A stretch of 64,000 bases of DNA from Sphingobacteriaceae bacterium (GTDB taxonomy: Bacteria; Bacteroidota; Bacteroidia; B-17B0; Aurantibacillaceae), in NCBI GenBank assembly GCA_023251725.1, contig JAHEYG010000003.1, forward strand, positions 1 through 64,000, given 5' to 3'. The translations under genes were made by a program, and so were the position numbers. Of the stretch, positions 10,964 through 57,159 are shown one piece after another. Under the pieces are notes generated by a model, which did not search any database, was not told the origin of the DNA, and worked only from the letters and a program-made list of their open reading frames with translations. Numbering within the stretch: position 1 is the stretch's first letter; every line of letters begins with the position of its first letter.

Positions 10964-13877
10964 TGTTTTTATAAAGACACAATATTATTTTTGTTCCCAA
11001 TGATTCATTTTTGTCATTATTAAGATCTTCAATCTTTAATTCGTATATTTTTTCGTTATGAGTATTCATATTCATTATCCGGTCGGCAGTTAATTTCATT
11101 GATAAAGATGATTTTGTTTTTCCGATATTTAATTTTTTTGATTCGATTCGGCCAATCCCATTGTCTTCAATAACACATTCTATTTTATCGGTATGATTGG
11201 TAAATTTTATATTTAATCTTTTTTCGCCATCTTTCGCCATTAATCCATGCCAAAGTGCATTTTCAACGTAGGGTTGTAAAATCATTGGAGGAAGCATTAC
11301 TGATTCAGTAATAATGGTTTCATCAACTTCAACTTTATATATAAATGAATCGCTGAAACGGCGTGCTTCAATTTCGAGATAAAGTTGAAGAGCTTCTATT
11401 TCTTCCTCCAAACTAATAAGTTTATGTTTCGAATTTTCCATTATCTTTCGAATAAGGCTAGAAAATTTTTCAAGTGCTGTGTAGGCTTCATCAGATCTTT
11501 TTTTAATTATTAGAAACTGAATCGAATTCATTGCATTAAAAATAAAATGCGGATTCATTTGCAGCCGCAAGGCCTGTTGTTCTAATTCAAGCATTCCTCT
11601 TTCGTAATGTAATATTTTTTCTCGCGTTGCAAAAGAAGTTGTCAAATTCCTTACCCGTCTGAAAATAATAATTGAAACTGTAGACGCTATTATAAAAACA
11701 ACAAGTACACTGAACCAAAGTGTTTGCCAGAATTGTGGTACAATCGAAAAAGTAAATACCTCGGGCTTTGTTTCCCAAGAACCATCAGAACTGAAAGCCA
11801 TCACTTCGAAACTTTGATTACCGGGCGGAATAGATCCGGTTTCAATTGTTGTTGCACTTGTAACGTTCCAAATTTCACTAATGGAAGGAAAACGGTATTT
11901 ATAAAGTAAGTTACCAATAAATTTATAGGAAGGACATAAAAATGAAATTTTAAGTGGAAATTCTGAAGAAGAATATTTTGAACCGGCAATTGAATAAGGT
12001 TTGTCGTTTATGTGTGTAATAAAAATTTTATGTTCAGGTAAAGGTGTAATTGTTTGTGGCTCGGTAAACATTGTAATTCCTAGTGAAGATGCTACCCAAA
12101 CGGTATCTTTAAAAACAAATACGTCGTTAAGATCGTTACAAGCAAGACCTTGATTGGAATAGTATTTTTTAATACTGAATATTCCCAATAAAGTATCGCT
12201 GAATGAAATTTTATTTAAGCCATTTCTGGTGGTTACCCAAATATTTTTTTTAGAGTCGATATAAATTCCTTTGCAGAGATCGTCTGATAAACCGGAGGAT
12301 TTATTTATTTCAAAATTTTTATTATTTATTTTTACAAATATACCATGGCCGTAGGTAGATATCACCAGCATATTATTGCCCGCGCTTTTCATAGAATAAA
12401 TATCTTTTTTAGAAAGAAAATTAAAGGCCGGATCACTATAGTATTTATTATTTTTAAACATTACTAAACCACTATTTGTTCCGGCAAGCAAAAGCGAATC
12501 AGCAGGAAGATAAATCAAATCATTAGCTTTTACATTGGCAAAAACAGCAAGATCGAGTTTCGGATAAGCAACAATGTCATTTATTTGTGAAAGGCCTTCA
12601 TTGAGATAAATAAGTTTATTAGAGGTTGAAACCACCGCCTTATTTCTGTTTATGAATTCAACTGAATTAATTAAGCCCTGTTCGGTTTTAAATTTTGAAG
12701 GATTACTAAATGAGAATTTCAAATATTTGGATTCTACGAATACCAAAAAGGTGTCGGAGTTAAAATATCGTTTTATGCCATAATTTAATCCCTCGCCTCC
12801 GGGATTTTCAGTATAAAGATCGAGGGTTTCAAATTTGTGATCGGTCATAATTGTAATTTTACTTTTTTTATGACCTGCTATAATATGGTTATTATCAATT
12901 CCATTAATTCGAGTTACATTTTCGGAAATAAGACCGCTCGCCACATTGTAATGTCGAATATTAAAATCAGGAATAAATAAAACACCGTTGTCTAATGTAG
13001 AAATCCAGAAGCCACCTTCATTATCTTCACACACACTGCTAACTGCTTTTCCCTTAAAATAAGTTTCTGTTTTTCCTTTATTATTTATTATGGTAAGTCC
13101 ATCTTGATTGCCAGTACAAACTTGCCCCTTTATTTCTCCTATAAAATTTATCCGCGATGAAGTAGCGGCATAAACTGAAAAACCCGAGTCGCTAGGGTTA
13201 ATCGAAAAACGATATAATTCCTTAGCAGTAGAAATAAACATTCCGGTTTTATTTCTATAAGCCCTCACAGTTGATTTATCTTCAATCCGATTAAATTCCG
13301 ACTCCAGGTTTAATTTTTTGTCTTTTAAACAAAAAATTCCATATTCAGTAATAAGGTGTATTTCTTTTTCGTAAATAAATGAATAATGAACTCGAGGTTC
13401 GGCTTTAAAATCGGAAAATGAGTTTAGCTGTCTGTCTAATTTTAATACATAACCGCTTAGAAACGATAACCAGATATTCTGTTTTTCATCTTCAACTATT
13501 GAACTTATTTGTTGTAAATTATCATTCACACGAAGTACAGATAAAGTTTGGCCAGAATAAATTGAATCATTTAAAATAAATGCCGGTTTTCCATTAGAAT
13601 TTTCAAGCCATATTCTACCGTAAGAATCTTCGAAAAGACGGTGAACAACATTATCGGGCAAGCCGTTTCCGCTATTAAATTTAGTAAAATTAACTCCATC
13701 GAATTTACATACACCGGCGTCAGTTGCAAACCACATAAAACCTTCTCTATCTTTTAATGTATGAAAAACACGATTCGATGAGAGACCATTCGTGCTGTTA
13801 TAATTGAGGTAGGTAGGATCTTGAGCTTTAACTGTGTAAAACGAAATAATAATAAGTAATATAGAAATTTTATGCAT
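10938..13877 (-). CDS. Two-component-propeller sensor histidine kinase, LytS/His_kinase type
   Basis: Signal peptide, beta-propeller repeats, Y_Y_Y-like region, TM, LQMNPHFIFNAMNSIQFLI; overlaps RR by 26 bp. Confidence 0.92.
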   Translation of the reverse strand: MHKISILLIIISFYTVKAQDPTYLNYNSTNGLSSNRVFHTLKDREGFMWFATDAGVCKFDGVNFTKFNSGNGLPDNVVHRLFEDSYGRIWLENSNGKPAFILNDSIYSGQTLSVLRVNDNLQQISSIVEDEKQNIWLSFLSGYVLKLDRQLNSFSDFKAEPRVHYSFIYEKEIHLITEYGIFCLKDKKLNLESEFNRIEDKSTVRAYRNKTGMFISTAKELYRFSINPSDSGFSVYAATSSRINFIGEIKGQVCTGNQDGLTIINNKGKTETYFKGKAVSSVCEDNEGGFWISTLDNGVLFIPDFNIRHYNVASGLISENVTRINGIDNNHIIAGHKKSKITIMTDHKFETLDLYTENPGGEGLNYGIKRYFNSDTFLVFVESKYLKFSFSNPSKFKTEQGLINSVEFINRNKAVVSTSNKLIYLNEGLSQINDIVAYPKLDLAVFANVKANDLIYLPADSLLLAGTNSGLVMFKNNKYYSDPAFNFLSKKDIYSMKSAGNNMLVISTYGHGIFVKINNKNFEINKSSGLSDDLCKGIYIDSKKNIWVTTRNGLNKISFSDTLLGIFSIKKYYSNQGLACNDLNDVFVFKDTVWVASSLGITMFTEPQTITPLPEHKIFITHINDKPYSIAGSKYSSSEFPLKISFLCPSYKFIGNLLYKYRFPSISEIWNVTSATTIETGSIPPGNQSFEVMAFSSDGSWETKPEVFTFSIVPQFWQTLWFSVLVVFIIASTVSIIIFRRVRNLTTSFATREKILHYERGMLELEQQALRLQMNPHFIFNAMNSIQFLIIKKRSDEAYTALEKFSSLIRKIMENSKHKLISLEEEIEALQLYLEIEARRFSDSFIYKVEVDETIITESVMLPPMILQPYVENALWHGLMAKDGEKRLNIKFTNHTDKIECVIEDNGIGRIESKKLNIGKTKSSLSMKLTADRIMNMNTHNEKIYELKIEDLNNDKNESLGTKIILCLYKNNEYENNNC

Positions 13878-23490: not shown

Positions 23491-26400
23491 ATGGCTAAGA
23501 AATTTATTGTCCTTTTTCTATTTTTAGCTTCCCTGGGTAAGGCTCAGTGTCCGCAGGTTTTTAATTATTTAGGCGTTCCAAGTTCTAATCCGTATTGGAT
23601 AAGCTGTACCGGTGGAAGTTACACTCTAAACTTTTCGGCCCCTACCAGTTGGGGTACTTATACTATTAATTGGGGAGATGGTACAGCCAATTTTAATGCT
23701 GCTTCTTATACTGCAAGTACTAATATAGTTCATACCTATACTGCTACCATAGATACTTTTCCCTTAACCCTTATTATTCCTTCTTTATCTTGTACTTTAA
23801 CGGGTGTTGTAGTAATGGAATTGCCCGTTATAGCAGGAAATCAAATTGCTTTCGGTGGTACAAATACTGCTTGCGCGCCTGCTATACTTAATTTTAACAA
23901 TAACAGCACCAACGTTTCAAAAACTACCACTTTTACTTGGAATTTCGGCGATGGTTCTCCACCCGCTATTTTTTCTTATACTAATGGTGGGACAAATATT
24001 GCGCATACATACACGCCCGGTGCAGTCAATTGTCAAACGGTTGTAACCATGACCGCAAAAAACTATTGCAGTTTTGGAGTACCAACAAAAGACAGTATTC
24101 CTATTCAGATTTTTGATAAAGATGTGGCTAACTTTTCGCCGGCTTTATTTGTGAAATGCTGGCCCGATAATGTTTTTAATTATACCAACACTTCTTCGCA
24201 AACCTGCGCGGGCCAAGGCAATACTTTTCAACGACAGGAAATGTGGGATTTTGGAAATTACTGGGGAAAAGGAGTTGACTCGCTAACGGCATGGAGCCCT
24301 TGGCCACCCGCAACTCCTGTTGCTGTTTCATATACTGCCGTTGGTAATTATACGGTGATGCTTAAAGACAGTAGTTTTTGCGGAGTAGTAACAAAAGTTT
24401 TAACAGTTGCCATAATAAATGCTCCTGTTTCAGGCATTGGAGTACCTGCGGCACCGTTATGTCAAAATGCACCATTAACTTTTTCGAACAACAGTACCGC
24501 CGGCTTTTTTTATCAATGGAATTTTGGTGATGGTGGGGGTTTTGTGGCTACACCTTTCGGGCCGCAAATTCATACGTATACTTCAACAGGAACTTACACG
24601 GTTCAGGTAGTTACTGCTATTCCCGGTGGAGGAAATAGTTGTAAAGACACTGCGAAAGTGGTTATAAATATTTTGGTGGCACCGGTTGCTAATTATGCAT
24701 TTACCGGTGGTTCGGGATGCGGTTCATTAGCAGGAGTAACATTTACCGATTCTTCTATTGGAGCTACCGGCTGGAGCTGGAATTTTGGTAACGGAAATAC
24801 TTCCACTTTGTCCATTCCGCCGGCACAAAATTATACCACAGCAGGAACATACACGGTTTCATTAACTGCTATTGCAGTTAACGGTTGTGTTAATACAAAA
24901 AGCGCTACCATAAATGTATTTCAAAAACCGGGCGCAGCATTTTCTCCTACATTTATTTGCGCAGGAACAATTACAAGTTTTACCGACCAATCTACTTTTT
25001 CGCCTCTTGATCCGATTATTAGTTGGGATTGGACTTTTGGCGACGGTACTCCTAATTCTACCTTACAAAATCCAACTCATACTTATACGGCCATTGCAAC
25101 CTATACCGTGAAATTAATTGTAAAAACCGCTAACTGCATCGATTCCATTAATGTCGTAATAGCCGCCAATACCAATTCGGGATTTACTTTTACTATGACA
25201 CCTGCCAGTGGTTGCACACCGTTAGGGGTTAATTTTATATCACCGCCAGGTGTTGTTACTGCCAATTGGAATTTTGGTAACGGAAATACATCGGCCCTAA
25301 TAAATCCTTCAACCACTTATACTAACGGTACACTCGGAAATCAATCCTATACGGTTACATTAATTGCCACCAACGCAGCAGGTTGTGTGGATACTGCCCG
25401 ACAGATTGCAACCATATTTCCAAAACCTATTGCTAATTTCACTTTAAATCCTACTATTGGATGTTCGCCATTAATTTCGAGTTTTACCGATTTAAGTGTT
25501 CTTGGCGGTGGTGGCGGTTACAATTGGGATTTTGGTGATGGAACATTATCAACTCTTACAAATCCTATTCACACTTTTACCACTAATGCTTCTTTTGTAA
25601 ATACTACTTATTCGGTGTCGCTTGTTCTTTTCAGTGCTAATGGATGTAAAGATACCGCTTCTACATTTGTGACTCTACTTCCTCACCCAAAATCTTTTTT
25701 TAGCGTTGATACACCGGTTTGCTCACCAAGAATATTAACATTTACTAATTCAGCAGTTGGTGCTATCACTTATAATTGGGATTTTGGAAATGGAAATACT
25801 TCCAGTTCGGCTTCTCCTACGTTAACTCAATTATACATTAATAACACCGGCCTTAATCAAACATTTTTGGTGACTTTATTAACCACTAATGCAAGTGGTT
25901 GTTCCGATTTAAGAAGTGCCAACGTGGTTATTCACTCTCAACTAAATTTAAATTTAACGGCTAATAAAGACAGCGGCTGTACCGCCCTTAAAGTTACTTT
26001 CCCTGGTTTTGCTACGGTAAATAATTACGCATGGACTTTCGGCGATGGAGGAATATCTTCTTTCGGAAACGTAAGTCATACTTTTACTAACAGTACACTT
26101 TCTACTGTTATTTATACGGTTCAATTAATTGCAACCGATATTTATGGATGTTCGGATACAGCTTCTAAAATAATAAAAGTGTTTCCTAAACCAATTGCAT
26201 TTTTTACGGCGAGTCCGCCTACTGTGGAAGTATTAAATCAATCTATTACTTGTGTAAATACTTCTACGCTTAATAATACAAACTTATGGACCTTCGGCGA
26301 TGGCGGAACTTCGTCTGCGGCAAACCCGGCGCATACGTATACTTCTATAGGAATGTATCAAGTCACTTTGATAATTACCAGTACAAAAGGCTGTAAAGAT

Positions 26401-27944: not shown

Positions 27945-28034
27945 TTGTACTGCCCTTAATTAATTTTTTGTTGCCCAGTTTGTCGAGGCATTAAATTTAA
28001 AAACAATCAATATGAAAAAAATACAACTGTAATT

Positions 28035-29624
28035 ATGTTTGCTTTATTAAGCAGTTTTGTATTTAGTCAACCTGCTGGTAAATGGTCTACGGGCGGAAAC
28101 GCCATTGTAGCCGGAGATTTTATTGGCACAACCAATAATTTCCCCTTTGATTTCAGAGTAAATAATGTTCAGCAAATGAGTTTAAGCGTTAACGGCGTTT
28201 TAACTCTTAATGCATTAAGCGGAACAAGCAACCGGATTTTATTTACCGATACCAATGGAAATATTACAGCCTTAGCCGCCGGAACTACCGGGCAGTTTTT
28301 GAAAAGCAACGGTACTTGGGGCAATTTACCATTAAGCGCAACCAGTTGGGGTGTGCTGGGTAACGATATATTTAACACAAATACAGGCAACACCGGAATT
28401 GGCACAAACACCCCTTCCTTTAAACTCGATGTAAACGGTTCGGTACGTATAAAAAACGATTTATTGGTTGAAGGCCAAATATTAATTAGCGAGAAAGTAC
28501 AATCGGGCGTAGTTAGTACCGATACCATACGCATGGCACCCGGAGCGGGCGGCCAAATTATAGGCGATATAAGAGCCATGAATAAGTTTTCTGTAGATGG
28601 AAATTCATTATTTTCCGGAAAATTAACCGCTACACAAGGTGTAATGTTTGATAATGCCGGTACAAAAGGTATTTCATTAATACCTGGTGTAGGTGCAAAT
28701 CCTGATGTTTGGAGTTTTGGTAGGGGACCCGGGGCCGGCGCACTTTTCTTAAATAATCCTTGTTTTTCACCTGTTGCTCCTACTGCACTAACCAGTTGGC
28801 AATTTCCGGGCATATTACAAATATATTCTGCCGATCCTTCTGGTAATTATATACCTACTACTTCTGTTTTGACATTAGGCTCTTGGGGTACCGGAAGTTC
28901 AATTGATGTAGCCGGTGGTGGCGTTGGTAGCAGTTTACTAATGAATTATTTTTGTGGAAAAGACATCGGACTTTGTACTGGTGGAGGCGGTAAAGTAGCC
29001 GTTGGAAATAATTTAGAAGTAGGTTTTGCAAATACAGATTTAAATATTACAGCAAATATTAATGCTGTTGGTGGTACTAAAGTTGCTATTGGTGCTTTTA
29101 GTAACCACATTAGCGGTGGTGGCTATTATACAAAAATTGTTGTTAATAGAGACGATACAAAAGCCATTGGTATAATTAACGGCGCTACAGGCGTTGAAGG
29201 GTTTAAAGTGATGGGTGATGGAAAAACTATTATAGGAAAACCATTATTAAACACGAGTATTCATTTTAGCGACGCTTTATTAACAGTTAACGGTAAAGTA
29301 GTAGGTAAGTCATTATATGTTACACTTCAAAGCTGGGCTGATTACGTTTTCAAAAAGGACTACAAATTATCGGCATGGGAAGAAACCGAAAATTATTTTA
29401 TAAAAAACGAACATTTAAAAGGAGTGCCAACAACAAAAGAGGTAATGGCAAATGGCGTTAATGTAGGAGAAACACAGGTAATTTTTCTTACAAAATTAGA
29501 AGAAGCGTATTTATACCTTGGAGAAGCAAAAAAGGAAATAAAAGAATTAAGAGACGAGATAAAGGAGTTAAAAAGAGAAAAGGAAGGTTTTGAAAGCCGA
29601 CTTTTAAAATTGGAGAATAAATGA
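28035..29624 (+). CDS. Secreted tail-fibre-like protein with C-terminal coiled coil; true start probably 28012 with a frameshift in A7
   Basis: GNTGIGTNTPSFKLDVNGSVRIKNDLLVEG motif and EAKKEIKELRDEIKELKREKEGFESRLLKLENK coiled coil. Confidence 0.85.
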   Translation: MFALLSSFVFSQPAGKWSTGGNAIVAGDFIGTTNNFPFDFRVNNVQQMSLSVNGVLTLNALSGTSNRILFTDTNGNITALAAGTTGQFLKSNGTWGNLPLSATSWGVLGNDIFNTNTGNTGIGTNTPSFKLDVNGSVRIKNDLLVEGQILISEKVQSGVVSTDTIRMAPGAGGQIIGDIRAMNKFSVDGNSLFSGKLTATQGVMFDNAGTKGISLIPGVGANPDVWSFGRGPGAGALFLNNPCFSPVAPTALTSWQFPGILQIYSADPSGNYIPTTSVLTLGSWGTGSSIDVAGGGVGSSLLMNYFCGKDIGLCTGGGGKVAVGNNLEVGFANTDLNITANINAVGGTKVAIGAFSNHISGGGYYTKIVVNRDDTKAIGIINGATGVEGFKVMGDGKTIIGKPLLNTSIHFSDALLTVNGKVVGKSLYVTLQSWADYVFKKDYKLSAWEETENYFIKNEHLKGVPTTKEVMANGVNVGETQVIFLTKLEEAYLYLGEAKKEIKELRDEIKELKREKEGFESRLLKLENK

Positions 29625-29626
29625 TT

Positions 29627-30427
29627 ATGAAAAAAATCATATTGTATATGATATTTTTTAATTGCGCAAGTACTTTTGCCCAACAGGATAGTCTTGGTAA
29701 AGTTTCAACCAACGCAAATCGAAAATGGCATTACACAGCCGATTTATCTTTTACTAATATGCTCCCTATAAAAGAGTATTATCCAATTGGATATTATTCA
29801 GTTTCTAGTGTCGGCAGCAAAAACGATGGTTTTGCTGATTTTAAATTATATCCAAAGTATTCTTATGCTTTAAATTTTACCATAGGAATACAAAGAAATT
29901 TTTGTAAAAAAAAGAAATCATTTTTTAGTTTAATTCTATCAGGCAAATACTCATTTATTAATCATAAAGCTACAATGGTTGGTGAGTATTTGAAGGGAGA
30001 CGAAGCCCCTTTCTATTTTAACGGCGTTGCAAATGAACAAAGATTGATACAAATGGTAAGTTTAGAAACAGGAGTTTCATATAGTAGAATAACTTCTAAA
30101 CAAAGTACTATTTCATTCGTTCTTAAAGTTGCAAATGGGGTAGGGTTTTATACTCAAAAAATTTCTTATCGCGAACCCTTCCCGTTAACAAACTGTCAAA
30201 ATTGTCCAACAAGTTTTTATTCTAATTATATAGATAATAGTTTATTTTTTTTAATAAGCGGTACAGGCGGAATTAATTATTTGTTCAAATATAAAAATAT
30301 CCTGTATGGTCCCAATTTTGAATATTCTATTCCTATAGGTTTTCATAGAGGGTTCCCGGAAATAGCCGGCGTTAGCGCTTTGCAATTTTACCATAATATT
30401 TTATTAGGTATAACACTTAAATATTAA
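29627..30427 (+). CDS. Putative outer-membrane beta-barrel protein
   Basis: MKKIILYMIFFNCASTFAQ signal peptide, amphipathic strand pattern; follows preceding gene directly. Confidence 0.75.
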   Translation: MKKIILYMIFFNCASTFAQQDSLGKVSTNANRKWHYTADLSFTNMLPIKEYYPIGYYSVSSVGSKNDGFADFKLYPKYSYALNFTIGIQRNFCKKKKSFFSLILSGKYSFINHKATMVGEYLKGDEAPFYFNGVANEQRLIQMVSLETGVSYSRITSKQSTISFVLKVANGVGFYTQKISYREPFPLTNCQNCPTSFYSNYIDNSLFFLISGTGGINYLFKYKNILYGPNFEYSIPIGFHRGFPEIAGVSALQFYHNILLGITLKY

Positions 30428-35279: not shown

Positions 35280-35299
35280 CATTTTTTAATTTCTTAAAA

Positions 35300-35348
35300 C
35301 CCGAAACCCGAAACCCGAAACCCGAAACCCGAAACCCGAAACCCGAAA
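35300..35348. repeat. Heptamer array (CCCGAAA)x7
   Basis: Seven perfect head-to-tail copies; ends 6 bp before the ATG at 35355. Confidence 0.97.
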
Positions 35349-35354
35349 CCCCCA

Positions 35355-56992: not shown

Positions 56993-57159
56993 GGTTATAA
57001 GGTTATAGGGGTATAGGGTTATAAGGTTATAGGGTTATAAGGTTATAAGGTTATAAGGTTATAGGGTTATAAGGTTATAAGGTTATAGGGTTATAGGGTT
57101 ATAAGGTTATAAGGTTATAGGGTTATCGGTTATAAGGTTATGGGGTTATAATGTTATTG
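56993..57159. repeat. Octamer array (GGTTATAA/GGTTATAG), about 20 copies
   Basis: Head-to-tail 8-mers with A/G alternation at the last base; begins 12 bp upstream of the minus-strand ATG at 56981. Confidence 0.97.

Follow-up and report, generated by a model that had tools for sequence, protein, structure and literature searches.

A one-base frame break before the signal peptide of a surface protein gene, and slippery repeats at the same place in its homologues

A surface protein gene whose start codon and signal peptide lie in different frames may be reversibly switched off, simply broken, wrongly assembled or expressed all the same. Which of these applies was the question raised by a gene ending at position 29,624 of the window, i.e., the whole stretch of 64,000 nucleotides analysed here (coordinate ranges of this gene and of the next one are on the forward strand).

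Start region and product of the window gene

The ATG at 28012-28014 is followed by exactly seven A (28015-28021), and direct reading of the sequence from this codon gives ATG AAA AAA ATA CAA CTG TAA, a six-codon ORF (MKKIQL, 28012..28032) closed by the stop at 28030-28032. The original prediction, that this ATG and its A7 tract are out of frame and lead to a stop after six codons, was thus confirmed. It also claimed that the ORF opening at ATG 28035, almost adjacent to this stop, begins inside a hydrophobic core and lacks a basic n-region, and the translation agreed with this. The signal-peptide core and cleavage region (MFALLSSFVFSQ, 28035..28070) share their frame with the mature protein, as displayed by translation and by homologue comparison, and one added base turns the reading from 28012 into MKKNTTVIMFALLSSFVFSQPAGKW. 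Position 28012 is very probably the natural start of the gene, homologues having MKK-type n-regions at the matching place, and a signal peptide split by a one-base frame difference was supported. The frame relation between 28012 and 28035 is not a chance join, because the mature protein has homologues among secreted proteins, many of which carry a complete signal peptide. A profile (A1) of the conserved mature N-terminal region (28065..28442) found these homologues in 75 of 87 genomes from this bacterial family. The changed base may lie outside the A7 tract and cannot be placed in it with certainty, because any single-base change within 28015-28034 could act alike. Start-site context scoring gave similar results for 28012 and 28035, and did not separate the two candidate starts.

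Downstream of the break, translation and homologues displayed an intact ORF of 529 aa (28035..29624), coding for a secreted and probably fibrous surface protein. AlphaFold modelled the mature protein poorly (pLDDT 64, pTM 0.30); within this model of low overall confidence, a long C-terminal helix (29463..29618, pLDDT 73-89) is a probable coiled coil. A PDB sequence search with the protein returned weak hits only, and no C-terminal T9SS sorting domain (Por_Secre_tail or TIGR04131) was found in it. T9SS sorting-type domains were found in the neighbours at 23491 (below cut-off) and 30431, and a PorP/SprF gene precedes the window gene. The next gene (29621..30427) encodes a secreted protein of 268 aa matching no family and is itself followed by the gene of an M4 peptidase that carries a T9SS sorting domain; since the start of this 268-aa gene and the stop codon of the 28035 ORF overlap (29621-29624), an OFF state could spread to it. 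No relatives were found in viral contigs, and weak PHROG matches (a tail-fibre match among them, for L033) were not read as a sign of phage origin.

Repeats before the signal peptides of homologues and of a paralogue

Poly-C tracts of C7 to C16 were found between the start codon and the signal-peptide core in many homologues. Tracts of at least nine C were rare (0 to 15 per genome in these genomes). In five genomes, picked because such members were present, 19 of the 35 listed tracts of this length preceded a signal peptide (16 homologues and 3 other secreted proteins), against about 0.4 expected under a generous assumption. The binomial value for this comparison presupposes independent tracts, a condition that related paralogues do not satisfy. 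One homologue (L067) carried nine copies of CAACGTA in place of poly-C, and nearly all homologues devoid of a repeat had a basic n-region. Many homologues, as well as a paralogue in the genome of the window itself, harbored a hypermutable repeat downstream of the start codon and ahead of the signal peptide, and comprised both in-frame and out-of-frame members with ORFs otherwise intact. Among 22 scored members, which are different paralogues and not alleles of one locus, 7 were in frame and 15 out of frame, close to the one third in frame expected from random slippage; the automatic ON/OFF scoring uses a nearby ATG, and an alternative ATG puts one member (L166) in frame, so that the count is 7 or 8.

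Other C tracts were observed in these genomes. Two other secreted proteins of G029 with similar surroundings carried C9 before the signal-peptide core (L176 at 971 and L178 at 977). A contig of G035 begins (L024, position 1) and a contig of G032 ends (L172) at C12, as though assembly had broken off at the tract. In contig 79 of G005, C11 (L191, 1022-1032) directly follows a lipoprotein-like signal (SLSFAACNKT), and the long frame beyond the tract looks out of register with this signal.

The paralogue of the window gene, on contig 50 of the same genome (52% identity), harbored (AAATCGC)8 (G000:C50, about 12443-12498) inside the coding sequence, between ATG and signal peptide, and is off: six or nine copies put the gene in frame and eight out of frame, and no stop codon occurred inside the array at any array length tried. 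With this array and the frame break in the window, gene and paralogue are therefore both off in the assembly. The protein has been kept, as displayed by a dN of 0.43 vs a dS of 1.39 between the two.

Further repeats were observed elsewhere in this genome. The sole C run of at least nine is a C12 on contig 43 (G000:C43:13912-13923; L038, 1501-1512), which interrupts an Acyl_transf_3 gene; the two resulting fragments align with neighbouring portions of the Pfam model, and the gene is likely a repeat-gated acyltransferase. In the window, a perfect (AAACCCG) array of 7.9 copies (35297-35351) stands directly before the ATG (35355) of a membrane protein having no Pfam match, and an intergenic octamer array, GGTTATAA, is repeated 20.8 times at 56993-57157.

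The tree placed the window gene as sister to its orthologue in a genome of the same genus (G005; support 98/88), among members mostly devoid of repeats. This orthologue starts with ATG-A7 in frame, but a frameshift in the middle of the gene, away from any repeat, disrupts it. The same-genus family genes inspected showed no repeat at the signal peptide. Because of this grouping, the case for a switch is strong at the level of the protein family but weak at the window tract, and the window copy would be either a low-rate switch of the kind known for inlA or a recent null.

Explanations of the frame break

In the genome of the window, 174 exact matches to ATG-A7-B were counted. Base rates rest on the window plus 30 loci, in which 17 other ATG-A7 gene starts could be classified; all were in frame, 28012 being the only out-of-frame gene start, and it is therefore the OFF state that is exceptional and not the tract. 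As a gene start the A7 is ordinary, and it is no specialised repeat. The idea of the A7 as a dedicated phase-variation tract was consequently not accepted, the closest relatives also lacking a long repeat there, but the broader proposal of an ON/OFF switch stayed credible owing to the real slippery repeats found at the same position in homologues and in the paralogue.

Our leading interpretation, held tentatively, is that the window gene is a real OFF allele of a surface-protein family gated by slippage, which would flip back on regaining one base near its start. With the start codon at 28012 and the signal peptide in different frames, translation would end after six codons and leave the protein off. 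Family members in related genera would be gated by slippage at the repeats between start codon and signal peptide, and the window gene would revert through a one-base change near its start, at a rate that would be modest, as for short A tracts. We consider possible, with somewhat more reserve, an Opa-like system in uncultured Bacteroidota, i.e., a family of several genes for secreted proteins of fibre-like type, many being repeat-gated (poly-C, AAATCGC, CAACGTA), in which the window gene would be switched via its A tract. Ordinary loss of function, with a base lost or gained near the start of a gene that begins to decay and no switch at all, is on the unlikely side when taken by itself, and a simple null of recent origin comes close in likelihood to a switchable OFF allele. 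The mid-gene frameshift of the G005 orthologue, the loss of start codons in other family members (L066 of G108, and L011 on contig 50 of G028) and the otherwise stable frame of A7 starts speak for such a loss, while the intact 529-aa remainder argues against decay and an indel this early is the easiest kind to reverse.

Two further explanations are both improbable. An error of assembly or consensus, or a strain mixture from which the consensus took one length, fits a draft genome (132 contigs, about 75% complete) in which a single base alters the reading. The original prediction had listed sequencing error as a candidate, which is disfavoured, as the window holds 97 A/T runs of at least seven within ORFs that are intact. 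No other broken gene was found in the window, and the small ORFs checked there were whole genes, except one at the contig start. A scan of genome contigs, which gave two MAG loci, found no second strain. Production of the protein despite the break, through transcriptional slippage or ribosomal frameshifting on the A7 or through a start at ATG 28035, was judged just as improbable. The near adjacency of stop and next ATG and the similar contexts of the two starts make it conceivable, and insertions made during transcription of A/T runs are documented, becoming more frequent in longer runs (PMC5574713). Putative slippage of this type on the window A7 is possible, probably at low level, but seven bases would be short for efficient slippage, and a start at 28035 would give a signal peptide free of basic residues, unlike nearly all repeat-free homologues.

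Relation to known switching systems

Gating of this kind is already known, from signal-sequence repeats in opa (PMC13183285) and short A tracts in inlA (PMC2831843). A reversible OFF allele has a precedent in inlA of Listeria monocytogenes (PMC2831843), also a surface protein gene with a short A tract near its start, in which a one-base change leaves a peptide of few residues and is reversible at a measured rate (about 5.5e-7 for A6 to A7 and 3.9e-8 for A7 to A6). Such a rate would be slow beside that expected of long C tracts. In inlA, however, A6 is off and A7 on, the tract is polymorphic among isolates and reversion was measured, whereas a single sequence is known here. Like opa of Neisseria gonorrhoeae (PMC13183285), the family is a multi-gene surface family in which the reading frame depends on repeats around the signal sequence and many copies are out of frame. 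Every opa gene has pentanucleotide repeats, while here relatives and the paralogue carry poly-C or heptamers and the window gene has no long repeat; no sequence relation to opa is claimed.

DNA inversion is the main known route of phase variation in Bacteroidota (PMC11868660). The invertase-mediated system of Bacteroides reviewed there also switches surface structures in the same phylum, by inversion and not by the repeat slippage proposed here. Heptamer direct repeats of Beggiatoaceae, Cyanobacteria and some Bacteroidetes (PMC4679880) likewise form arrays near start codons, but their unit is TAACTGA, they lie mostly outside the coding frame and they were proposed as regulator sites, whereas the array of the contig 50 paralogue is part of the coding sequence. 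A literature search that covered mostly papers free of subscription found no description, for Bacteroidota, of slippery repeats ahead of signal peptides.

The A7 site by itself is of little weight. If the interpretation as a slippage-gated surface family is true, it would be the counterpart of Opa among environmental bacteria and a warning that gene callers misplace the starts of such genes, while repeat lengths in metagenomes could be used to track switching in nature.
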